DNA from: Alphaproteobacteria bacterium
GTDB taxonomy: Bacteria; Pseudomonadota; Alphaproteobacteria; JABAAW01; JAHZMA01
NCBI GenBank assembly: GCA_022599575.1
Contig: JAHZMA010000079.1
Span: forward strand, 1 to 52,449
Reading direction: 5' to 3'
DNA length: 52,449 nucleotides
Part shown: positions 8,777 to 52,370 of the stretch, one piece after another
Numbering within the stretch: position 1 is the stretch's first letter
How the letters are laid out: the number at the start of each line of letters is the position of its first letter
Position numbers and translations under genes: made by a program
Notes under the pieces: model-generated
Databases searched by the model: none
Seen by the model: only the letters and a program-made list of their open reading frames with translations
What the model was told of the DNA's origin: nothing

Positions 8777-9496
8777 TTATGATATACGTGTAAACACGTT
8801 AATCGCTTCTGTACTTAATTGATTTTCGCGGTCAATCAGTGATTTTATCCGTGCATTATCGCGTTCCACTTGCATCATTTTTACCAATTCCGTGATTGCT
8901 TGCACATTAGAGCCTTCTACATAGCCCTGTTTCAAAAGCGCGTTCTGACGCCTAATTGCGGGATCGCGGGAAATAAATAATGTATCACCATTCTTGCTTA
9001 AAGAAGCTGGGTTATCAAAATCAAATACGCCAATTCTGCCCACTGCCACACCATCTGCGACTATCAAACCCTCAGCGGTAACGTCAATTCGTTCGTAATT
9101 GGCAGGCAATGTTAATGCCTGATTATTATCGTCTAACACCTGATAGCCATGATTGGTAATCAAATCATTATTTAAGTTTAATGTAAATCTACCAGCGCGT
9201 GTATATTGTACACCTGCTGGCGTATCTACTGCAAAATAACCGTTTCCTTGAATGGCGAAATCAAGCGGGTTGCCCGTTTGCTGTAACGGACCCTCTGTGG
9301 GGTTGGGCGTGATATTAACGGCTTCCGAAAATGATATTGCACGCGTTTTTTCAGGCTTTTCTAATAATTCGTTAAATGCAATACGGTCGCCACGAAAGCC
9401 ATCAGTATTGATATTAGCAATGTTATTTGCTGTCACATCTAGCCAGCGGCGCAAACCAATCTGGTGTGTCAGCCCTACATAAAGGGTGTTTTCCAT
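8777..9496 (-). CDS. flgF: flagellar proximal rod protein FlgF
   Basis: FlgF is a proximal rod protein of the flagellar basal body. This 239-residue protein starts MENTLYVGLTHQIGLRRWLDVTANNIANINTDGFRGDRI, with the ANNIAN rod-protein signature. It has DFAIQGNGYFAV and YTRAGRFTLN mid-protein, and ends with GSNVQAITELVKMMQVERDNARI, which fits FlgF rather than FlgG. GAGGAG lies 8 bases before ATG 9496. It is the first gene of the rod and ring operon and is preceded by a sigma-54 type promoter about 50 bp upstream. It is transcribed divergently from fliL. Confidence 0.96.
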   Translation of the reverse strand: MENTLYVGLTHQIGLRRWLDVTANNIANINTDGFRGDRIAFNELLEKPEKTRAISFSEAVNITPNPTEGPLQQTGNPLDFAIQGNGYFAVDTPAGVQYTRAGRFTLNLNNDLITNHGYQVLDDNNQALTLPANYERIDVTAEGLIVADGVAVGRIGVFDFDNPASLSKNGDTLFISRDPAIRRQNALLKQGYVEGSNVQAITELVKMMQVERDNARIKSLIDRENQLSTEAINVFTRIS

Positions 9497-9858
9497 TGCA
9501 AGCGCTCCTCTGTATCTGTGTGCTTGTTGGTGGTTGCTGGGAATGTTGCAATAATTATGCCATAATTCCGCTTATGCAACATTATTGTTGAAAAATTGCT
9601 TGGTAATGTATTTTTTGTAAGAAAAGGCTTGCTAAAAAATGAAAGCCATATTATATCTGTTATAGTTGCATATTTATATATATGTTTTGGTACGATATAA
9701 ATTTTGCAAGCAATATGAAGCAGTTAATGATAGAATCGTTTTTGCAAAATATTGCGATGTTTCATGGGCAGGAAAGAAGCATTTTTTAGATATTGTTTGG
9801 CAATATCGGTATCATTAAGGTATGGAACAGGTGAATATTCCTTTTGGGAGCAAGCGTG
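9497..9858. other. divergent flagellar intergenic region
   Basis: About 360 bp separate flgF (-) from fliL (+). The flgF-proximal side holds a sigma-54 type element (9547-9562) inside a cluster of dyads: AATGTTGCA at 9542-9550 with TGCAACATT at 9585-9593 (perfect 9-bp arms), and AATTAT/ATAATT at 9553-9567. The middle is very AT-rich. The fliL-proximal side has only a weak GG-N10-GC match (GG 9767-9768, GC 9779-9780). I see no gene in it. Confidence 0.7.
9547..9562 (-). promoter_or_regulatory. sigma-54 (RpoN) type -24/-12 promoter for flgFGAH
   Basis: On the minus strand the sequence is TGGCATAATTATTGCA. It matches the consensus TGGCACG-N4-TTGCA at every position except the CG pair, with exact GG-N10-GC spacing. 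A start about 12 bp downstream gives a leader of roughly 40 bases with the flgF ribosome site in it. Sigma-54 control of rod and hook genes is known in alphaproteobacteria such as Caulobacter. Confidence 0.72.
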
Positions 9859-16270: not shown

Positions 16271-16753
16271 TCACTTGCTTGCTAAATCTTCGGCATTGAT
16301 GCCTAAATCGCGATATTTTTGCACCTCTTGTTTTGTTGTTGCTTGTGCTGTTTTCTCTGTTCTCTCTGGTGGTGTTTTCACCGCATTCACTCTAACTTTC
16401 TCGATGGTGCGCCCCGCACTATAAACGCCAAACCCAACCATGAAAGCCTGCCATAATTGGTCGGGAATCTCAATCGGATAAATCTCACGGCTAATAATCA
16501 TATCAATGATGGGCAAGATAAGGTAATTGAAAATTATCATCATCACAACCGTCATCATAAAGAGTGGTCGCCAGTTGCGTTGAATCCAACTTTTACCAAT
16601 GGCATCATTTTCGTTGATTGCCAACTGCCCTTTGATAATATCAGCCTTGCTTTGTGAAAGCGCGCCTTTATTTGTCTCAATGATAGTTTGCACGCCAGCA
16701 ACATTTTTTGCGCCCTTAACGGCAAGCCCAAGCATATTTGATAGTAAACCCAT
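16271..16753 (-). CDS. GTA-type three-helix holin
   Basis: This 160-residue membrane protein matches the family known as holin of 3TMs for gene-transfer release (GTA_holin_3TM). The N-terminal amphipathic region MGLLSNMLGLAVKGAKNVAGV is followed by the characteristic W-I-Q-R-N-W-R-P sequence, leading into a long hydrophobic segment (LFMMTVVMMIIFNYLILPIIDMI). A second segment follows (LWQAFMVGFGVYSAGRTIEKV), then a charged C-tail. ATG 16753 overlaps the stop of the peptidase gene (TAATG) and has AAGGAG 7 bases upstream. A holin would permeabilise the inner membrane so the partner enzyme can reach the wall. No capsid, portal or terminase genes are in the window. Confidence 0.82.
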   Translation of the reverse strand: MGLLSNMLGLAVKGAKNVAGVQTIIETNKGALSQSKADIIKGQLAINENDAIGKSWIQRNWRPLFMMTVVMMIIFNYLILPIIDMIISREIYPIEIPDQLWQAFMVGFGVYSAGRTIEKVRVNAVKTPPERTEKTAQATTKQEVQKYRDLGINAEDLASK

Positions 16754-17220
16754 TATCGCGCTCCTTTTTTAATAATGGGATAGCTTTTGCTACCCGTATC
16801 TAAAATAATCATTTTTTGTAATAAAAAACGGCTTTTCTCTTTTTTACGTGCTAATCCCACATGCACAAATGTGTTGTAAATAATGATTTGGTCAAAATAT
16901 AGCAAATGTTCAAAAAACCATTTCGCCAACGCCCATTGCGTCATAGCGGCTTGTTTTTTACACCAATCGCCCGCACGGGCTTCAAGATGTGCGCTTTTCG
17001 TGCTACCGCCAATTTGCGTGTTAAGTGTTTTGCATCTAAACCATGAATTGGGGTCAGGCTTAAAGCCTAGAAAGGCTGCATATGGCTCGGCAACAATTTG
17101 GGCATATTCTTCTGCAAATGGTAACAAATCGCTCGGTAATGAATTATCAATGCCATGTTTATCTGCCTCAATAGAATCGGTTACATCATCAATCGTAAAA
17201 TGTGTTGATATTTTTTCCAT
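16753..17220 (-). CDS. M15-type peptidase, probable endolysin partner of the holin
   Basis: This 155-residue protein resembles Peptidase_M15_3/VanY-like endolysin domains. The zinc-site pattern SAHLEARAGDW corresponds to the S-x-H-x-x-G-x-A-x-D motif, with His and Asp kept. FDQIIIYNTFVHVGLARKKEKSRFL corresponds to the FDQLI...WVHVS block with the third ligand His. The middle part PNSWFRCKTLNTQIGGS fits the phage-type RSPxLN region. It would cleave peptide cross-links in peptidoglycan. There is no signal peptide, consistent with release through the holin, which is encoded in overlap directly downstream. No clear Shine-Dalgarno is visible. Confidence 0.78.
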   Translation of the reverse strand: MEKISTHFTIDDVTDSIEADKHGIDNSLPSDLLPFAEEYAQIVAEPYAAFLGFKPDPNSWFRCKTLNTQIGGSTKSAHLEARAGDWCKKQAAMTQWALAKWFFEHLLYFDQIIIYNTFVHVGLARKKEKSRFLLQKMIILDTGSKSYPIIKKGAR

Positions 17221-17462: not shown

Positions 17463-17483
17463 TTACAAGGCTCGTTTACAAGG
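17463..17483 (-). repeat. 13-bp tandem duplication at the ilvA stop
   Basis: TTACAAGG occurs at 17463-17470 and 17476-17483. The second is the ilvA stop codon with the last leucine codon. The period is 13 bp, the same style as at the flgH and HIT gene stops. Confidence 0.5.
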
Positions 17484-18699
17484 GTTGCAAAACAGTTAAG
17501 TTTTTAAGCGGACGCCCTAATGCTTCCAGTGCCGTACAAATTTCATCACCATGTTCTTTATTACGACATTCCAGTGATATATGTAGTTTTGTCTCTTTAA
17601 TCGGCAATTCATTGACCACATGCTGATAATTCACCTCGATAATATTACCACCCTTATCGGCAATGGCTTGCGCGATAATTGCCAGATAACCGGGCGCATC
17701 GATGGTATCAACTTCTATTTTCATATAGCGATGGGTGCGAATCATGCCACGTATCATCAGCGATGACAGGACACGCGAATCGATATTTGCGCCACAAATC
17801 ACCACACCTACTTTTTTGCCTGTAAATTGCTTACCATGTTGCAATAATGCCGCAATGCCCGCCGCACCCGCACCTTCGGCAACCACCCGTGCATATTCCA
17901 CCAAAGTGGCAACGGCTTGTTCTAAATAACCTTCTTTTACTTGCAATAATTCATCCACATATTTTTTGGTCATTGCCTGATTGATTGCGCCCGGGGTTTT
18001 TACCGCAATCCCTTCAGCAATGGTATTGCCGCCCATATTGGGCTCGATATTATTAAGAAGCTGATACATTGATGGGTAAAGTGCCGCCTCAACCCCAACA
18101 ATTTTAATGTTCGGATTGATTGATTTTGCCGCCAATGCCACGCCCGCAATCAGCCCACCACCGCCTATTGGCACGATGATAACATCTAAATCTGGCACAG
18201 CTTCCAGCATTTCTAGCCCGATTGTGCCTTGCCCAGCGATGATTTTGGGGTCATCATAAGGTGAGATAAAGCTATAATTATGTTTTTCTGCCATTTCATA
18301 GGCTAATGGCTCACCCTCATTTAAGTTATAGCCATGCAATATCACTGTTGCGCCAAATTGCTCGGTTTTCATGATTTTGGTGAGGGGGGTGTTATGTGGC
18401 ATGATGATGGTAGCAGGAATCCCCATATTCTGGGAATGATACGCAACCCCTTGCGCGTGATTGCCCGCAGAAACCGCAATCACGCCATTTTTGCGTTGTT
18501 CCTCATTCAAGGATAATAGCTTGATATAGGCCCCCCGATCCTTGAAAGACCCTGTGTGTTGCATGGTTTCTAGTTTCAGAAACACATCAACATTTAATAA
18601 TGCAGATAGCGCGCTTGGGTTAATGGTAGGGGTTTTAACAATTTTACCATCTAAAAGCTGGGCTGCTTTATGCACAGAGTCACTATCAACAAGTTTCAT
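17476..18699 (-). CDS. ilvA: threonine ammonia-lyase (threonine dehydratase) with ACT domain
   Basis: The enzyme deaminates threonine to 2-oxobutanoate for isoleucine synthesis, using PLP. From ATG 18699 (AAGGAG 6 bases upstream) it has 407 residues. Lys53 in TGSFKDRGAY carries PLP, SAGNHAQGVAYH is the substrate loop, and the glycine loop VPIGGGGLIAG binds the cofactor phosphate. The C-terminus holds one ACT domain (EVDTIDAPGYLAIIAQAIADKGGNIIEVNYQH, about 325-407), as in the shorter ilvA/tdcB form, not the two-domain E. coli IlvA. The ACT domain suggests allosteric control. It stands alone between the lysis pair and the giant gene. Confidence 0.94.
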   Translation of the reverse strand: MKLVDSDSVHKAAQLLDGKIVKTPTINPSALSALLNVDVFLKLETMQHTGSFKDRGAYIKLLSLNEEQRKNGVIAVSAGNHAQGVAYHSQNMGIPATIIMPHNTPLTKIMKTEQFGATVILHGYNLNEGEPLAYEMAEKHNYSFISPYDDPKIIAGQGTIGLEMLEAVPDLDVIIVPIGGGGLIAGVALAAKSINPNIKIVGVEAALYPSMYQLLNNIEPNMGGNTIAEGIAVKTPGAINQAMTKKYVDELLQVKEGYLEQAVATLVEYARVVAEGAGAAGIAALLQHGKQFTGKKVGVVICGANIDSRVLSSLMIRGMIRTHRYMKIEVDTIDAPGYLAIIAQAIADKGGNIIEVNYQHVVNELPIKETKLHISLECRNKEHGDEICTALEALGRPLKNLTVLQPL

Positions 18700-18781
18700 T
18701 CTTATCTCCTTCAATAATTTTGCTATGTTAGCATGATTAGCATCTTTAGCAATTCTTTTTTGTTATTCTTTTTTCTTTTTT

Positions 18782-18797
18782 TGGCATTTTATTTGCA
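18782..18797 (+). promoter_or_regulatory. sigma-54 type -24/-12 element upstream of the giant gene
   Basis: The sequence TGGCATTTTATTTGCA matches TGGCACG-N4-TTGCA except for the CG pair, with exact GG-N10-GC spacing. It deviates from consensus at the same two positions as the flgF promoter and points toward the giant gene, whose start is 534 bp away. No activator sites were identified. Confidence 0.5.
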
Positions 18798-18955
18798 ACT
18801 GTAACATATGGTTGAATAATATAGCATTTTTTGACGATATAATAGATTAAGCGCTTGTTTATAAAGAAATATTTTAAAATTGTGATATATTATAAAGGTT
18901 GTATTTATTAATAAAAAAACAATAAAATAAAATATTTATGATTGCCTTGTTAAAA

Positions 18956-18972
18956 AACTATTATTAATAGTT
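18956..18972. promoter_or_regulatory. 17-bp palindrome in the giant-gene leader
   Basis: AACTATTA-T-TAATAGTT is a perfect dyad with 8-bp arms. It lies about 160 bp downstream of the sigma-54 element and 360 bp upstream of the giant gene start. It could be an operator or only an AT-rich coincidence. Confidence 0.3.
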
Positions 18973-19331
18973 GATATTTTCTAATAATGTGTTATATTGC
19001 CGTTCGTAGTGTTGTGGCTATTTTTAGCACACATATAATAATAAGTTGGTTTTATGGGCTTTTTAAGTCTGCAAGGCGATTTTTTTATAGGAAAATGATT
19101 TTGACTCTGCTATTATCAAATAATATGAGCTGTGAGTGCAAATCTCCAAATGTTTCGGCATATTGTTGCACTTCGTTGATTCTGGCGTTCAAAATTGTCA
19201 ACACTACATTTCAGCACTTAAAACATATAACGCACCTCTTATATACCACACACTACATCTTGCGTGTTTATGTTTTGACTATTGGCTATGCTCATTTTTC
19301 AATGGTAAGGAGATATCAATTAGATTAAGTA

Positions 19332-22300
19332 ATGCGTATCACCGACCATAATGCACTAGGTGTTCATCACTTAACGCATCATATATCACACCTCTTGCGA
19401 CATGTTGCAAGGGGCGTTGTTGTGTCAGTTATGCTGATTGCGCTATATTCATGTGGCGGTAGCAATAACGACATTGGTGGTTCTAGTGATGATGTGAATA
19501 TCACTGATGGGGATGTTGGTCCACCATCGGATCAAACCGATATTTTACCCCCAAGCTATGAGGGCAGATTCGCTTTTGGCGCAGAAAGCTATGATGTTGC
19601 CGTTGGTGGTGAGGTTGAGATTACCATTAATCTTACAAAAGGCGGTGAAGCTTTTGTTGCACCAGCAGGTGGGCTAAGCCTTGTTTTGGAAGAAGCGATT
19701 AATGGTGCTGCAGGTGATACACCGAATCGCCCTATCGTGAATATTGAAGAAGGTGTAAGTTCAGTGGTTTTCACCTATGTGGCTGAAGAACGTGCGGTGG
19801 ATGATGAGGTTACCTATAGTTTTTATCAGCTACCAGAAGAATATGGCGCAAGAGCGCCACGCACAACAACTCTTACTGTCGCAACCAATGATGTTAGTTT
19901 TAGTTCAGGTGGGGTGAATGTTGATGCGGGAAAATCGGCTGAGGGTGAGCTTGTATTATCCGCCTCTGCCACAGAAGAAATAACGATACCAATCACTGTG
20001 CTAGAGGTTTTACCAAATAGCGTTGGTAATAATACGCGGATTGAAAATATTGTGTTTGCGGTAGGTGAAGATAGAAAGAGTTTTTCTTATCAGGCGGCAA
20101 CCAGCTCGGCGGGGGGATATGCCAGATATAGTCTGCCCGCTGAAGATGAATTGCCAAAAGGGTTGCAAGCAGGCGAACATGCAAATTTCAATTTTGTTAT
20201 TTTTGCTGATACTGAATTAGAAGGCATTCATGCCAATTTTGGCACAACTGAATATTTGATGAATGAAGGGCAAACAATCGATATTGATGTGCGCCTAACC
20301 AGTAATGAAGATTTAACAGAAGATATTGTTGTTAATCTGGAATATAAAAACCTACCTAATGGTGCATGGGTTACTATGCCAGTAACATTCCCTGTAGGGG
20401 TTGATGGCAAAACTGAGAAACGCGCTGTTGTTAGTTATAATGGTAGTGATGGTGATAGAGAATATCGGCTAAATCCTGATAGCGTTAGTGTTGGCGAAGA
20501 TATAACAGTGGGCGAACCTGCCATCGCAACGGTGCGGGTGGTTTCTGGCGAAATTGGCTTTGCGGAAGCAAAGCAAGAGGTCAATAATGGGCTATCTGCC
20601 GATGTGACTGTTGAATTGACGGCAGAAGCGGTGCGCGCATTTGATGTTGTTGTTGCGATTGCCTCAACAGATATTAATGGTAATTCTGTGAATGACACGG
20701 AAACATTGAAATTCCAAGCAGGCGAAAGAAGCAAGGAATTTAGCTATGATACGGCTGGCAAGGAAGCTGATAGCACGATAACATTTAGTTTTCAACCGCC
20801 TTTGCCATTAGGTATCATACCTACCAATACTGGCAATCAAACGCATATTGTGCAGTTACGCACCGATACAGTCACATTTGATGAAGTCAATTATAATGAT
20901 GTGAAGCAGGGTGGAATATTAGAAATCCCACTCACCATGACCAAAACGCCGACAACATCGCTAAGGGTGCCGCTGATTCTTGCACATAGTAACGCTCAGC
21001 AGAGTTTGTCGCGTAGTGATGCTTTTGTTACATTCAAAGCGGGTGAAAAGACTGCTATTTATGAGCTTTATACAAGTAGCTATACAGTTGATGATGTGAT
21101 TGAGATTAGCTTTGGCAATTTATTAGCGATAGGGTTGGAAAAAGGCAAAATAGATAAAGTAACGATTGGTATCGCCCATAGTAATCAGATTTCGTTTTCA
21201 CAGAGTCATTTGCGCGTTGGTGTTGGTGAAACGGGCACATTCACATTAAATCTTGATGTTGCCGCCACCTCGCCGTTAACATTCAAAATTGCTAGGGTGG
21301 AAACGCCACAAGGTGGGGCGCCGCTTGCAGCAGTGGAACAAACAGTCACTTTTGGGGTTGATGAGCAGCAATCAGCTGATATTGTTTATGATGCATCGCT
21401 TGCTGTATCAGGGACTAAAATTGTCTATAGCATTACGGAATTCGCAAATGGTATAGGGGCGGGTGAGCATGAAACATTGACAGTTTTAATCGGCAATACT
21501 AGCATTAATTTTGCAGAACCTACTTACGAGGTGAGAGCAGGCGATACTGTTGATGTGAAAGTAATTGTTGGCACTGCGATTGATGCTGAATCTAAGATTC
21601 CACTTAATGTAAGGGGCTCAATTAATGGTGTTCTTATAACGGGGCAGGGAGAGGCTATCATTCCTGCGGGGAAAACTGAAGGTATTTATAGTTTCAAAGC
21701 ACTTGCTGATTGGGGGGGCAATCAAGTGGTTGTTGCATTGCCACCTGATTTGCCGTATGGCTTGAAATCTGACGCTAATGGCATTCAGGCGGCACGAATA
21801 GATGTTGTTAGCAGTGATATTAATCTCTCGGCTGCGACTTATGATGTGCGTAGAGGCGGCAAGGTAGATATTGAATTTTCATTGGCCGCGCCAACCACAA
21901 CACCGCTAGATATTTATTATAAAATTGATGATGTAGATGCAGGCTTATTTGCGACAATCAAGGCGGGTGATAAAAATGTTATCGTTAGCTACGATGCTGA
22001 TAAAGCGACTCATAGCTTGAATCAGACGGTAACATTTGCTCTGGATGTGGATAAATTGCCCTCAAATGTAACGGCAGGGGATATTGTATCATCTATTATA
22101 GCGGTGAAAGATGAAAGGGTTAGATTCGTTAAAGGTAATGATGCTGTTGCGGCAGGTAAGAAAATTAATATTGTAGTGCAACTAAGAAGTGCGGCGATTG
22201 GTGAAGAAACAAAGCTGCCACTGAGTGTCAAGATTAATGGCGTGGAAACACCAGACCAAGAAATTATTACCTTTGACGATGGTGATATATCACAGATTAT

Positions 22301-47209: not shown

Positions 47210-48019
47210 TTACCATTTTAGAAAATTTTGTGCTAATATCGGCTGTAAATCAACGATTGCGCCAATGGCGATAATAGCAGGGGTTTCAACTTTTTTCGCC
47301 GTCAAGCCCGCTTGGTGCAAACGGCAAATATGGATTTGCTGATTTTGCTGCGATGCGTTTGAAATAAAGGCAACTGAATCATCGGGGTTACGCCCCGCTT
47401 TGATAAGGTTATCAGCAATAATCGCAAAATGCTTGACTGCCATATACCAAACCATCACATCAGCAGCTTTGCTGATGGCGTGCCAATCAAGCGTATCTGG
47501 CACATCGCCCGTTAGCGCGTGCCCTGTAAGGAACATAACATTAATATTGCTTTCGCGCTGCGTGAGCGGAATGCCCGCCGATGCCAAACCACCAATGCCT
47601 GCGGTGATGCCCGATAACACCCGAAAAGCAATGCCTGCATGGTTGAGCTTAAGTGCTTCTTCACCACCACGCGCAAAAGTGAAAGGGTCGCCGCCTTTTA
47701 GGCGCAAAATCTTTTTGCCAGCACGCGCAAGATTAATCATTTGTTCGGTAATATCAGCTTGTTTGATTGATTTTTTACCACCGCGCTTGCCCGCAAAAAT
47801 CAGCTTGGTATCAGGCATTGCCCATTGCAATATCTCATCATTGATAAGCGCATCGTAAATGATATGGTCGGCATTCTTAACGGCATAAACAACTTCTAAA
47901 GTTACCATGCCAATACGGCCAGGCCCTGCACCCGCTAGCCATACTTCGCCTGCATTAAATATCGGCATTTGCGAAAATATTTCGGCTAAAAAACTCTCTG
48001 TGGCAACTTCTCGCGTCAT
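47210..48019 (-). CDS. cobA: uroporphyrinogen-III C-methyltransferase (SUMT)
   Basis: SUMT methylates uroporphyrinogen III at C2 and C7 to precorrin-2, the branch to siroheme and cobalamin. The 269-residue protein has VWLAGAGPGRIGMVTLEVVYAVKNADHIIYDALIN, the AdoMet loop LRLKGGDPFTFARGGEE, and FRVLSGITAGIGGLASAGIPLTQRE, a hallmark of SUMT. VMFLTGH and VWYMAVKHF follow near the C-terminal half. AAAGGA lies 5-6 bases before the ATG. It is a stand-alone enzyme, without the CysG dehydrogenase/chelatase part. First gene of the cobA-DUF3108-gluQ group, 54 bp downstream of the TipN-like gene. Confidence 0.95.
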   Translation of the reverse strand: MTREVATESFLAEIFSQMPIFNAGEVWLAGAGPGRIGMVTLEVVYAVKNADHIIYDALINDEILQWAMPDTKLIFAGKRGGKKSIKQADITEQMINLARAGKKILRLKGGDPFTFARGGEEALKLNHAGIAFRVLSGITAGIGGLASAGIPLTQRESNINVMFLTGHALTGDVPDTLDWHAISKAADVMVWYMAVKHFAIIADNLIKAGRNPDDSVAFISNASQQNQQIHICRLHQAGLTAKKVETPAIIAIGAIVDLQPILAQNFLKW

Positions 48020-48073
48020 CTGCTATCCTTTATCATTGATAGGTTTGCAGATAGCACATATTACGTTAATTTG

Positions 48074-51000
48074 TCAATTTATCATTACCCCAATATTGTT
48101 TGTGGTATTTTTTGCCATGTTGCGTCCTGCAATTTTAGCCAACATCGCGTAAAGCTTGCCAATATCCGATAGGCTGAAATCAGTTGCCAACGAATTATCA
48201 GGTGAAAATTCTTTAGAGCTGTGCATCAGGCTTTCAAATTTATTTTGATAGGTTTCTAACAATTGCTTGGTTTGAATGTTACGCAGATTTTCACCAGAAA
48301 TATGGTTGGCAAAATCATCATTATTTCTACTGAGCAGATGCAAGGTAAATGCGTTGCGCTTACCCGCTTTGTAATCATTTTCTATTTTCCTAAATTCTGT
48401 TTTATCAATTAAATTTTTGGAAAGTGCCGCACTGGTTTTGTGTAAATCTTCAATCAAATTGCGCGCAGAATTCATGAAATTGCGGTATTTTATATCGTCA
48501 ACAGCAGGTGGTGAGATTTTATCTTGCATTTGGTGTTGTTCGGGACGTCTTTCGGGCTGACGCATCTCTGGCTTTCTGGGGGGCAAGCCTTTTTCAGGTG
48601 TGGTGATTGTGGTTAGAAGCGCATCTTTATTTTGAGCTTTTGCTAAAATTATATCATGGGGCGACGCATTTTGTAACGCATTTTGCGACATCATATTTTC
48701 GGCATTGATATTTGCATCGCCATTGATATTCATATCGGTATTGGCATGGGGCAGACTCTTAAAAACCTCTGATGCCTGATTGGTGATATTCATCGCTTCA
48801 CGGCATTGATTGACCAGCTGTTCCTGCACATTTTGCATTTTATCACTCACCGAAAGCATGCCTGATTGCTTATCGGCAATGGTGGCACTTAATTTAACAA
48901 TGTTATGATTCATCCGTTCGGTTACTTTATCAAACGCATTGCTGAGATTGCTTAATTTTTCAATCACGCTATCAACAGCTTGCTTTGATATGGCATCAAA
49001 TTCATTCATTTTTTGATTATTGACACTGATTTGATTGCTATGATTTTGCACCAATGTGCCTGTTTGCTGTAGGCTGGTAAGCAAGCGACGCAGATTATTT
49101 TCGAACTCACTGCTATTTTTGGTTAAACCGCCTATGGCAGTGCCGAAAGTTTGATTGATTTTTTCGGCAGTATGGTGGAAGGAATCGCTGTTTTTGATAA
49201 ATTGCGCGCTAAATTGATTGCCTTGTTCTTTGATAGAATGCAGATAGCGCCCTAATGAGCCATTAAGGTCGTTGATACGGCTTTCAAAATCTTGTCCATA
49301 TTGGTCAATTTCGCGCAGTTGCGCTTGCACAATGTTTTCAAATGTGCTGCTATGTCTTTCAACGTCTTTTGCAACATCACGCATTTGCACGGCACTATGG
49401 GTGAGTTTATCGGCTGATTTATCAATAGAACTTTCGGCACTGGTAAAGATATTAAGGATTTTTTCACCACGAATCGTGAGATGATTGCTAATATTATCAA
49501 CCTTATCAATCGATTGCTTGAATGTTTCATGGAAATGACTGGCTTTTTCCTGAATCTGTTCTGAAACATCAGTTAATTTATCCATTGCGGGGGTGAATGC
49601 GCTTGAAAGACTATTATTATGGGTATTAATGGCTGTTTGCAAATTATCCACTTGGTTGCGTAATTTATCGTCCATTTGCGTGCAATGGCTTTGTGCCTGT
49701 GTTGAAATATCGCCAACCATACGCATATGTTGCGTCATTTTTTCATGGATAGATTGAAAGCGATTAACAATATCATCGGTTTTTTCAATGAAGAAATCTG
49801 AATTTTCCATCAATGTGCCTTTGGTGAGTGATGCTTTTTCTTCTGCCTCACGAATGGCATGAACCAGCTTTTCTTGGTCGGATTGAATTTGTGTGCGTAA
49901 CGCCCCTGAATTTTGTTCCATTCTTTGTAGCAATGCTTCATAGAAGGCGGTTTGTTTTTGGATAATCAATTTTAGATTATCAACCCTATCATCAGTATTA
50001 TTGATTAGCCCATCAATTTTGCCAACGCCTTGGTCAAGCATTTGGCTTGATTTTAGCAATTTTTGTAATAATTGTACCACTTGCGTTTCAATTTGCTTGC
50101 CTTGTGTGTTGAATTTTTCAATGACCTCAACACCAGTTTTTGCCAATATATCATTCATATGGCTGCCACCTTTTTCGATATTATCGATATTTGTCTGCAA
50201 GGCAGTAACCATTAATTCACTTTGTTTAGCGATAGAATCATTAAGGGTACGGTTGGCAATGGCAGAATGTTGTTGAATATTATTCTGTAAAAATTTAAGG
50301 CGTTCATTAATATTTTGTATTAAATCATCAAAGGCTTTGCCTTGCGATTCTTTGACATAATCGCTGATTTGATTGATTTTATTGGCATGTTTGGTGAAGT
50401 TATTTTCAACCGATTGCGAACAATTTTCCAATTTTTCGGTATTTTCAGTTAAGCGGCTAATATGTTGCCCCAGACTTCTATCAACCTTATCTAGCACAAT
50501 CTCACTTTTATCATTGACCGATTCTAATTTATCAAAAGCATTGCTAAAATTGCCAGTAAGCTGATTAACATGGCTTGCGGCATGGTTAACCGATGTGATG
50601 ACTTGCTCTAATTCATCGCGTACATTCTTGCCTAATTGTTTGGTGCTTTGGGCGGCATTGCCGATGGTTTGCTCAAAAGTTTCTTTGTAATCATTGGCAT
50701 GTTGCTGAAAATCACCATAAGATTTTTGTACTGAATCAACCAAATTACTCATCCAATTTTGGTGATTGCTGAAATGGTCGCTGATAATATCATAATTATG
50801 GGTATGATGCGTGGTAAGCTTTTCGGTAATTTGCTGGCTATGATTTTTCAAGAAAGCTTCTATTTGTTGCTCATTTTGCAAACGTTGCGCTTCCATTTCT
50901 TTGAAAATATCGGTGAAATTGCTTAAACCATCACTTACTTGGGTGGTAAGGTCGGCGCCTTTATCGCGTATCATGGTCATGATATTCTGGCACATATCAT

Positions 51001-52204
51001 TATATTGCACATGATATTGCTCAAATAGGCTGGTGAAATGTTCGTTATTGCGTCCTAATAAATCGCGCATTTGCACTTGCCTTGCCTCTACACGGTTGAC
51101 AAGCTGGTCGTTATTGATATTTAGCTCGTGCAGAATTTTCTGAATCCGTAAATACATGCCATTATTGCTATTTTCAAAATTAGCAATTAAATCTTCCTGC
51201 CGCTTATGAATATTATCGGCAATGTGATTGATTTTATCATCATGGCGCGAAATCACTTCATGAATTTGTTCTTTATTATCTTGATTTTGCGTCATCCAAT
51301 CTTGCAACATGTTTTTCTGATAATCATTCATATCTTTTCTTATGTCATCAAAACCTGATAGAATACCGCCAATTTGCGTTTCAATTTGTTGACGAATATC
51401 GCGTTGCCGTTTTTCTAAAATCTCGCTAATATCTTGTTCAATCACGGTGAAATGCTGTGTCAGTTTGCTTAAACTGGCTTCACGGTCTTGAATCACATTC
51501 ACCACATTTTTTAGCTCACCCATTGATTCTTGCGTGCTATGGCTAATTTTGCTTAAATTATCGCGTAACGCCTTGCCCATATGTTCGGTAATATTTTGAA
51601 ATTCGGTTTCGGCAGTTGTTGAAAGCGAACGCATCGCCTTGATTCGCTCATCAACCATTGCAATGATATTTTTAAGGTTATTTTCGGTTTGTTGCATCAT
51701 GGCATTATGCTGATTCATGGTATCGGCAAAACCTGCGCTGGTAGCATCATCGCTGTGATAGAGTGGCACCGAAAGGGCAGAAGAAGCTTGGTTGCGCCAC
51801 ATATCCTCGCTTCTTTGATTGTTACGTAAATTAATCAGCAACATGCTTAATAATAATAGAGGCGTTACGGCAATGGCAATGAATTGTATTGTTGCAATCA
51901 TTGATGCTATTTGCATTTCGGGGGATAAAAACATGGCAATAATTAATGCTGTCCACGATATAGCACCAGCATAAATGGCATAATAAGGAAGTTTTGTGCT
52001 TTTAATTTTTTGCGTGTTTTGTGCGCTGTGTTTGTTAGCAATATAGTCGCCATTGTTGGATATTATATTGCCTAGCGCAAGGCGTGTCTCTTCATTTGGC
52101 ATCTTATAGTCGCTATTACCATTAGCACCGTTACTCACATTATTGCGCGGTGTTATCGTATGATGATGCCTGATATTTGCATCTTTAGGCGTAGCGTGTT
52201 GCAT
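48074..52204 (-). CDS. large two-TM coiled-coil protein, TipN-like polarity factor candidate
   Basis: This has 1376 residues from ATG 52204, chosen because GAGGAA lies 3-5 bases upstream; ATG 52219 has no ribosome site and adds five residues. A polar N-terminus is followed by two membrane helices (about 74-93 and 99-124, numbered from 52204). About 1000 residues of heptad-rich, Gln/Asn/Ser-rich coiled coil follow (IKAMRSLSTTAETEF..., NITEHMGKALRDNLSKISHSTQESMGEL and similar). A proline-rich linker (PRKPEMRQPERRPE) leads to a compact C-terminal domain (about 1210-1365) with FMNSARNLIEDLHKTSAALSKNL, YKAGKRNAFTLHLL and SDIGKLYAMLAKIAGR. The layout is that of Caulobacter TipN, a pole-marking protein that positions the flagellum, though this one is much longer. 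Function is inferred from architecture only. Confidence 0.75.
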   Translation of the reverse strand: MQHATPKDANIRHHHTITPRNNVSNGANGNSDYKMPNEETRLALGNIISNNGDYIANKHSAQNTQKIKSTKLPYYAIYAGAISWTALIIAMFLSPEMQIASMIATIQFIAIAVTPLLLLSMLLINLRNNQRSEDMWRNQASSALSVPLYHSDDATSAGFADTMNQHNAMMQQTENNLKNIIAMVDERIKAMRSLSTTAETEFQNITEHMGKALRDNLSKISHSTQESMGELKNVVNVIQDREASLSKLTQHFTVIEQDISEILEKRQRDIRQQIETQIGGILSGFDDIRKDMNDYQKNMLQDWMTQNQDNKEQIHEVISRHDDKINHIADNIHKRQEDLIANFENSNNGMYLRIQKILHELNINNDQLVNRVEARQVQMRDLLGRNNEHFTSLFEQYHVQYNDMCQNIMTMIRDKGADLTTQVSDGLSNFTDIFKEMEAQRLQNEQQIEAFLKNHSQQITEKLTTHHTHNYDIISDHFSNHQNWMSNLVDSVQKSYGDFQQHANDYKETFEQTIGNAAQSTKQLGKNVRDELEQVITSVNHAASHVNQLTGNFSNAFDKLESVNDKSEIVLDKVDRSLGQHISRLTENTEKLENCSQSVENNFTKHANKINQISDYVKESQGKAFDDLIQNINERLKFLQNNIQQHSAIANRTLNDSIAKQSELMVTALQTNIDNIEKGGSHMNDILAKTGVEVIEKFNTQGKQIETQVVQLLQKLLKSSQMLDQGVGKIDGLINNTDDRVDNLKLIIQKQTAFYEALLQRMEQNSGALRTQIQSDQEKLVHAIREAEEKASLTKGTLMENSDFFIEKTDDIVNRFQSIHEKMTQHMRMVGDISTQAQSHCTQMDDKLRNQVDNLQTAINTHNNSLSSAFTPAMDKLTDVSEQIQEKASHFHETFKQSIDKVDNISNHLTIRGEKILNIFTSAESSIDKSADKLTHSAVQMRDVAKDVERHSSTFENIVQAQLREIDQYGQDFESRINDLNGSLGRYLHSIKEQGNQFSAQFIKNSDSFHHTAEKINQTFGTAIGGLTKNSSEFENNLRRLLTSLQQTGTLVQNHSNQISVNNQKMNEFDAISKQAVDSVIEKLSNLSNAFDKVTERMNHNIVKLSATIADKQSGMLSVSDKMQNVQEQLVNQCREAMNITNQASEVFKSLPHANTDMNINGDANINAENMMSQNALQNASPHDIILAKAQNKDALLTTITTPEKGLPPRKPEMRQPERRPEQHQMQDKISPPAVDDIKYRNFMNSARNLIEDLHKTSAALSKNLIDKTEFRKIENDYKAGKRNAFTLHLLSRNNDDFANHISGENLRNIQTKQLLETYQNKFESLMHSSKEFSPDNSLATDFSLSDIGKLYAMLAKIAGRNMAKNTTNNIGVMIN

Positions 52205-52370
52205 GTTTTCCTCATTCATAGCGCGGCTATTTTATAGCCAATATGATTTAGGCTGTTTATAACAGCATTTAAATCTTAATTATCGCAATTTACGCTTTAC
52301 ACTGCGATAAATATTGATTATTTATAAATGCACTTATGTGCTGTATCTCGCTATAGTCAGATGAATATAT
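52205..52370. promoter_or_regulatory. dyad-rich region between the TipN-like gene and tRNA-Leu
   Basis: Two 15-bp perfect dyads with 6-3-6 layout lie here: GGCTATTTTATAGCC (52225-52239) and GCTGTTTATAACAGC (52252-52266), centres 27 bp apart. Farther out are TTATCGCA (52280-52287) with TGCGATAA (52303-52310), and GCACTTATGTGC (52330-52341). TATAGT at 52352-52357 is a possible -10 for the tRNA. The dyads could be operators or mRNA hairpins for the TipN-like gene. Confidence 0.4.

Follow-up and report, generated by a model that had tools for sequence, protein, structure and literature searches.

A predicted sigma-54 promoter element facing a giant lipoprotein-like gene in an alphaproteobacterium and its possible control through FlbD

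This locus raises the question of whether a giant gene with a lipoprotein-like N-terminus is transcribed from a sigma-54 promoter that belongs to the flagellar set of the genome. The whole stretch of DNA analysed, 52,449 nucleotides long, is called the window, and its features are collected in Table 1. The first-pass annotation had proposed a sigma-54 element upstream of the giant gene and a counterpart upstream of flgF. On exact matching in the window, the former was found with the sequence, coordinates, strand, spacing and intergenic location that had been claimed for it. The counterpart was likewise found where it had been placed, with flgF starting at 9496, 51 nt further on, and the flagellar identity of the genes near it holds, as FlgF/G-type rod proteins, FlgA, FlgH, FliL and FliM were found. 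It may be noted that a GTA-type holin (GTA_holin_3TM) and Peptidase_M15 pair lies at 16271-17220, beside the flagellar genes. In sigma-54 promoters GG and GC stand 10 bp apart, and this is the distance in the element at 18782, within a TGGCAY-N5-TTGC context. The element faces the giant gene from within the 632-base gap between ilvA and the ORF from 19332, and its predicted transcription start is near 18808.

Table 1. Positions of the features considered in the window, with the basis of each or a remark
Feature	Position	Strand	Basis or remark
Exact TGGCA-N6-TTGC matches	1633, 9548, 18782, 32174, 33878, 42117	+, -, +, +, +, -	4 of 6 in coding sequence
flgF	8777..9496	-	family search, relatives' matches
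sigma-54 element of flgF, TGGCATAATTATTGC	9548..9562	-	exact match
ilvA-like threonine dehydratase (PALP and ACT domain)	17476..18699	-	divergent neighbour of the giant gene
TTGCTA and three TTAGCA at 9-bp steps	18720..18752		immediately upstream of the 18782 element
Predicted sigma-54 (-24/-12) promoter element, TGGCATTTTATTTGC	18782..18796	+	exact match, matrix score 20.1
Leader region, element to start codon	18797..19331	+	535 nt, AT-rich; about 524 nt from predicted start
sigma-70-like promoter TTGATA-N16-TATATT, TG before -10 (extended -10)	18971..18998	+	sequence match
AAGGAG, ribosome-binding-like	19307..19312	+	19 nt from ATG (long), read from sequence
Giant gene, 8810 aa	19332..45764	+	N-terminus with lipoprotein-like signal ...MLIALYSCGG (by eye)

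The consensus string was first counted on its own. The window had been said to hold two copies of TGGCA-N6-TTGC; it holds six, and exactly two are left when a pyrimidine is required at position 6. Dinucleotide shuffles of the window (n=200) gave a mean of 1.7 matches, with six reached in 2 of the 200. Genome-wide there are 158 matches at the N6 spacing as against 137 for N5 and 147 for N7. Since the wrong spacings are almost as frequent, most N6 matches are due to chance, and raw consensus counting was dropped as evidence. The rarity that had been claimed for the motif is therefore barely beyond chance for the bare string, but it stands when genomic context is taken into account. Also, the 15-mer of the 18782 element recurs in identical form, antisense within a recF-like ORF (named by eye) on contig C33, which was counted against our main explanation.

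Genomic context was assigned with a crude codon-based gene caller to the first 100 listed of the 158 N6 sites, and 279 sites with 15 other spacer lengths in the same stretches were used as controls. Intergenic calls were made for 24 of the 100 N6 sites against 14 of the 279 controls, and 20 N6 sites against a single control were found at most 350 nt upstream of a same-strand gene. As called, 21 of the 24 intergenic N6 sites face a same-strand gene. One supposed intergenic site, L088:1205 (at 310 nt according to the caller), was rejected as support because it is placed at the beginning of a FlgJ-like ORF (named by eye) that the caller had missed, and on dropping it the two N6 counts become 23 and 19. 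The stricter form TGGCAY-N5-TTGC (Y-type) is present at 81 places in the genome, 80 of which were classified; the place at L129 is absent among these, presumably since its context repeats another. On dividing the 80 sites, 51 were coding and 29 were called intergenic, and of the latter 26 face a gene (25 of 28 without L088:1205), while two of the other three have no downstream gene within the examined stretch. A genome-wide scan, which had been put forward as a check, thus gives similar string counts at wrong spacings and yet a clear intergenic excess over the spacer controls. The caller put the start of the giant gene at 19431 (distance 635); the ATG at 19332 was used instead.

A 27-column matrix was then built from 24 gene-facing sites lying at most 213 nt from a start, with the 18782 site left out. 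The latter scores 20.1, inside the leave-one-out range of 12.7 to 23.4 for the 24 reference sites, which were all selected by the same core, so that the comparison tests the spacer and flanks only. When the window is ranked by this matrix, flgF (23.6, in training) is followed by 18782 (20.1, held out) and then by a site at 16.3. A score of 20.07 is reached in first-order random intergenic sequence at 6.0e-7 per position, which gives a chance of about 3.8e-4 for one strand of the gap, of about 0.003 when extrapolated to both strands of all intergenic DNA in the window (2735 bases), and of 0.25 over the intergenic DNA of the whole genome (210 kb assumed). Each of fourteen matrices in which the spacing had been altered gave 0 to 2 intergenic hits scoring at least 18, as opposed to 26 at the true spacing, a number that includes the training sites and in which overlapping loci are not fully merged. 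Coding sites that score as high (20.3, 20.3 and 23.1, plus L088:1205 at 21.7) were counted against the element. The first-pass annotation had held that many equally good matches in coding sequence would tell against its reading. Such matches do exist, as the 51 coding Y-type sites and the four coding scores above 20 attest, yet the intergenic sites are far above the spacer controls. We consider the 18782 site likely to be a real sigma-54 element, and somewhat more likely than not to be a promoter of the giant gene. Compared with what the first-pass annotation could offer, the sigma-54 reading now stands on firmer ground, and the interpretation given there is as a whole borne out in part.

As for the machinery, the genome encodes FliX and RpoN (PF04552 at E 4.4e-64, contig C33). 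A PF00158 search of the genome returned five places, and GAFTGA is present at only one of them. This is a FlbD-like activator with an intact loop (GHEKGAFTGA), its best NCBIfam hit being FlbD at 661 bits, below the model cut-off of 750, and its gene clusters with flhA, a MotA/ExbB-family gene and fliG. The other places are an NtrX-like protein (L148:1628-3001, minus strand; NtrX is the best hit, below cut-off), in which GAFTGA is lost and Walker B LDK replaces LDE, and three weak hits that are Clp-type or Mg-chelatase ATPases without GAFTGA. Judged by these motifs, FlbD is the only competent sigma-54 activator candidate found in an assembly that is 94.6% complete. As it is the only GAFTGA activator found, a working element at 18782 should obey flagellar control.

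A FlbD-type enhancer could not be placed at the element, a point against FlbD control: with the palindrome from the flgF regions given below, the best score there is 0.7 bits against a null median of 5.9. Of the 26 own sites, however, 24 also fall below the 90% null; two exceed it (L104 and L141), one exceeds the 95% null (L104, 13.1) and none the 99% null (13.6), with flgF itself at 6.6 bits. A deduplicated motif search at the genome's own promoters gave a 14-column palindrome that scored 28.1 against 17.9-25.7 in 8 controls, a slight excess, a 16-column palindrome at 29.7 with controls up to 29.6, and a 12-column motif within the controls, and hence no convincing FlbD enhancer. As a positive control, the flgF region was also compared among relatives, a FlgF-like match being present in 40 of 60 genomes, own included. 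In 28 of the 29 best-matching relatives' loci (the exception is L046) TGG[CT]-N8-[TGC]GC is present 53 to 155 nt upstream of flgF, a looser pattern for which we estimate about 0.1 match per locus from base frequencies. From 29 flgF regions (28 relatives and our own) the palindrome CGGCAA-N4-TTGCCG was derived with a log-likelihood of 65.4, against 23.2-25.9 in three base-shuffled control runs that had fewer starts. It is probably the FlbD site. In many flgF regions of the class (L036-L065) some 100 bp separate the palindrome from the sigma-54 element downstream of it.

The 26 gene-facing Y-type sites lie upstream of 25 genes. Pfam was searched with 22 of these (all except those at L076, L080 and L088:323) and NCBIfam with seven. 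Flagellar genes, 9 of the 22, are the largest recognisable target class but not the majority, the remaining 13 having no flagellar family, and this was counted against our main explanation. The nine code for FlgF, FliK (with two elements), two FlgE/F/G-type proteins, a FlgE_D2 protein, FlgI, flagellin, a protein with flagellin and FlgL as best NCBIfam hits (below cut-offs) and a small Flg_bb_rod protein that is FlgB by size. Among non-flagellar targets an Adhesin_E, a DUF4910 and a GtrA protein pass the Pfam cut-offs; the others, giant gene included, show weak hits or none, and several have signal-like N-termini (by eye). The Adhesin_E-family gene, at L137:1270-1671 (plus strand), is a non-flagellar surface gene that lies about 57 nt 3′ of a good sigma-54 element. 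Also, four tandem hook-like large ORFs (659-693 aa) are present at L066:10644-19100, at least two of them with a sigma-54 element of their own. On another contig (C92, L127-L130), TGGCATGATGGTTGC or near variants of it are repeated in coding sequence, suggesting another long repetitive gene.

The giant gene has no recognisable kin in the material searched. No Pfam family was found in the protein taken in two halves, and its first 423 aa had no match in 59 relatives. Scans of the sets genome_contigs (first 423 aa and last 454 aa) and viral_contigs (first 423 aa), which detect close relatives only, gave none either, and a near-identity search of 18600-19700 against a phage collection gave no match. 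In four relatives of the order (L160-L163) the immediate upstream neighbour of ilvA, in the same orientation, is a homologue of the TP_methylase of the window, and before it comes a homologue of the 1381-aa protein of the window, with 22-24% identity; in a fifth (L164) the sequence ends at ilvA, so that the upstream order rests on the four. In the window, the TP_methylase and 1381-aa protein genes are at 47210-52219, beyond the giant gene. The latter and two small overlapping ORFs on the minus strand, one of which has a tRNA-synt_1c domain, stand between these two genes and ilvA. Three 1500-aa pieces of the giant protein had no match in the stretches from these relatives. From this arrangement, the giant gene looks like a lineage-specific arrival or insertion with a new promoter region.

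By the measure of the caller, taken to ATG 19332, the 18782 element lies 536 nt from the start codon, which is the longest distance when compared with 15-213 for the 24 reference sites and counts against it. The leader has no second copy in the genome. Immediately upstream of the element, the array at 18720-18752 contains a perfect TGCTA-N3-TAGCA dyad and its exact triple is unique in the genome; the array may be where a regulator of ilvA or of the sigma-54 promoter binds. Downstream of the element and nearer to the gene, the sigma-70-like site may be a second or even the sole promoter of the giant gene, which likewise counts against the element.

The explanation that we favour, at a probability of about 0.5, is that the element at 18782-18796 works as a sigma-54 promoter, belongs to the same set as the flagellar ones in this genome, is opened by FlbD and drives the giant gene. 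RNA polymerase with RpoN would bind the element as a closed complex. This would be opened by FlbD, under the control of FliX and in this way of flagellar assembly. The transcript would run from the predicted start across about 524 nt of leader before it enters the giant lipoprotein gene, which would then be expressed together with the flagellar rod genes, and the sigma-70-type promoter would possibly give a second start.

The long distance can be read in other ways. The element may be a chance match, with the giant gene transcribed only from the sigma-70-type site through a leader of about 325 nt, and it is in keeping with this that TGGCA-N6-TTGC is common in coding DNA, that 18782 is an outlier in distance, and that a sigma-70-like site with TG as good as the one seen occurs in only 3.4% of 500 shuffled gaps. 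It may be noted that the TG condition was added after the site was seen, and a 10-of-12 match without TG occurs in 34.6% of the shuffles. As opposed to this, a score as high as that of the element has a chance of only about 4e-4 on this strand of the gap, and roughly 0.04 genome hits are expected further than 213 nt from a start (extrapolated from 1467 such gene-facing strand-positions in the window) while the examined Y-type sites hold one. We therefore take a chance match to be unlikely but not negligible. The same outlying distance would also be accounted for if a real sigma-54 promoter made a short or untranslated RNA within the 535-nt gap, the giant gene being served by the sigma-70 site; at the usual distance from the element, none of the possible start codons has a convincing ribosome site. 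Yet no terminator-like site was found on the plus strand between the element and the giant-gene ATG, and an Rfam search of the leader gave no family at gathering score and its fold is not unusual, which leaves a riboswitch or other structured RNA in the leader without support from Rfam or folding. The ORF at 18987-19328 was rejected as a small gene, its codon log-odds being -45 as compared with +5 to +39 for six training-set genes and +18 for the first part of the giant gene. A short RNA is accordingly quite improbable.

Granting that the element is a real promoter of the giant gene, the tie to the flagellum depends on the activator. Another activator, missed by the incomplete assembly or by the PF00158 search, would not be strange given the 13 scanned targets that have no flagellar family, and no FlbD site was found at the genome's own promoters. 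But the confinement of GAFTGA to FlbD among the five PF00158 places makes a promoter with no flagellar tie very unlikely. We give least credence to a reading in which the target of the element, or of the TTAGCA array, is the divergent ilvA, with no consequence for the giant gene. The gap is after all the upstream region of ilvA, a gene that directly follows TP_methylase in the four order relatives, and the unique array sits between ilvA and the element; the element, however, points to the giant gene, as 26 of the 29 intergenic sites of this kind point to a gene.

If the FlbD-driven promoter is real, surface coat and motility would be parts of one developmental programme. We advance, tentatively, that the 26-kb giant gene, specific to its lineage and not far from the flagellar cluster, is controlled such that the lipoprotein is made, either wholly or above a basal sigma-70 level, only once the basal-body checkpoint is passed. 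In our view it is seldom known how giant bacterial surface proteins are controlled. With one GAFTGA activator found, the promoter call becomes a definite prediction, namely that mutants in rpoN, in flbD and in early flagellar genes would lose the sigma-54-driven share of giant-gene expression. The analysis also lists about 24 candidate sigma-54 target genes for the lineage, some of which are surface genes outside the flagellum.

A close comparison is with Caulobacter crescentus, where sigma-54 genes are tied to flagellar assembly by FlbD together with FliX (PMC3930126, PMC3096577, PMC7064773). The present genome has the same set, with RpoN, a GAFTGA-bearing FlbD-like activator, FliX and sigma-54 elements before rod, hook, P-ring and flagellin genes. 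It differs in that FlbD sites are not recognisable near its own promoters. Also, GAFTGA is present in both FlbD and TacA of Caulobacter and absent from NtrC and NtrX (PMC10274813), while a second such activator was not found here. No giant lipoprotein is named in the sigma-54 flagellar set of Caulobacter in the portions of the reports used (PMC3930126, PMC3096577, PMC7064773). Flagellar assembly state does affect surface attachment in Caulobacter through the fss genes and hfiA, but this coupling is described there in terms of signalling pathways (pleD, motB) and not of a sigma-54 promoter on an adhesin gene (PMC7885107). In a narrow search of the literature on FlbD with adhesins or holdfast and on giant surface genes of marine alphaproteobacteria, the sections of the sources consulted did not report the arrangement proposed here. 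Another parallel is offered by Pseudomonas putida, where the flagellar regulator FleQ activates the giant adhesin gene lapA (PMC5612765). In our proposal, too, the largest surface protein of the cell would depend on the master activator of the flagellum. LapA, however, is not known to be a lipoprotein. Unlike the 18782 element, the working lapA promoters described in that study have sigma-70-type -10 boxes, and three are moderately RpoS-dependent (PMC5612765). The 5′ ends of lapA mRNA have been placed as far as 597 bp upstream of its start codon (PMC5612765), and a long leader on a giant surface gene thus has a precedent.
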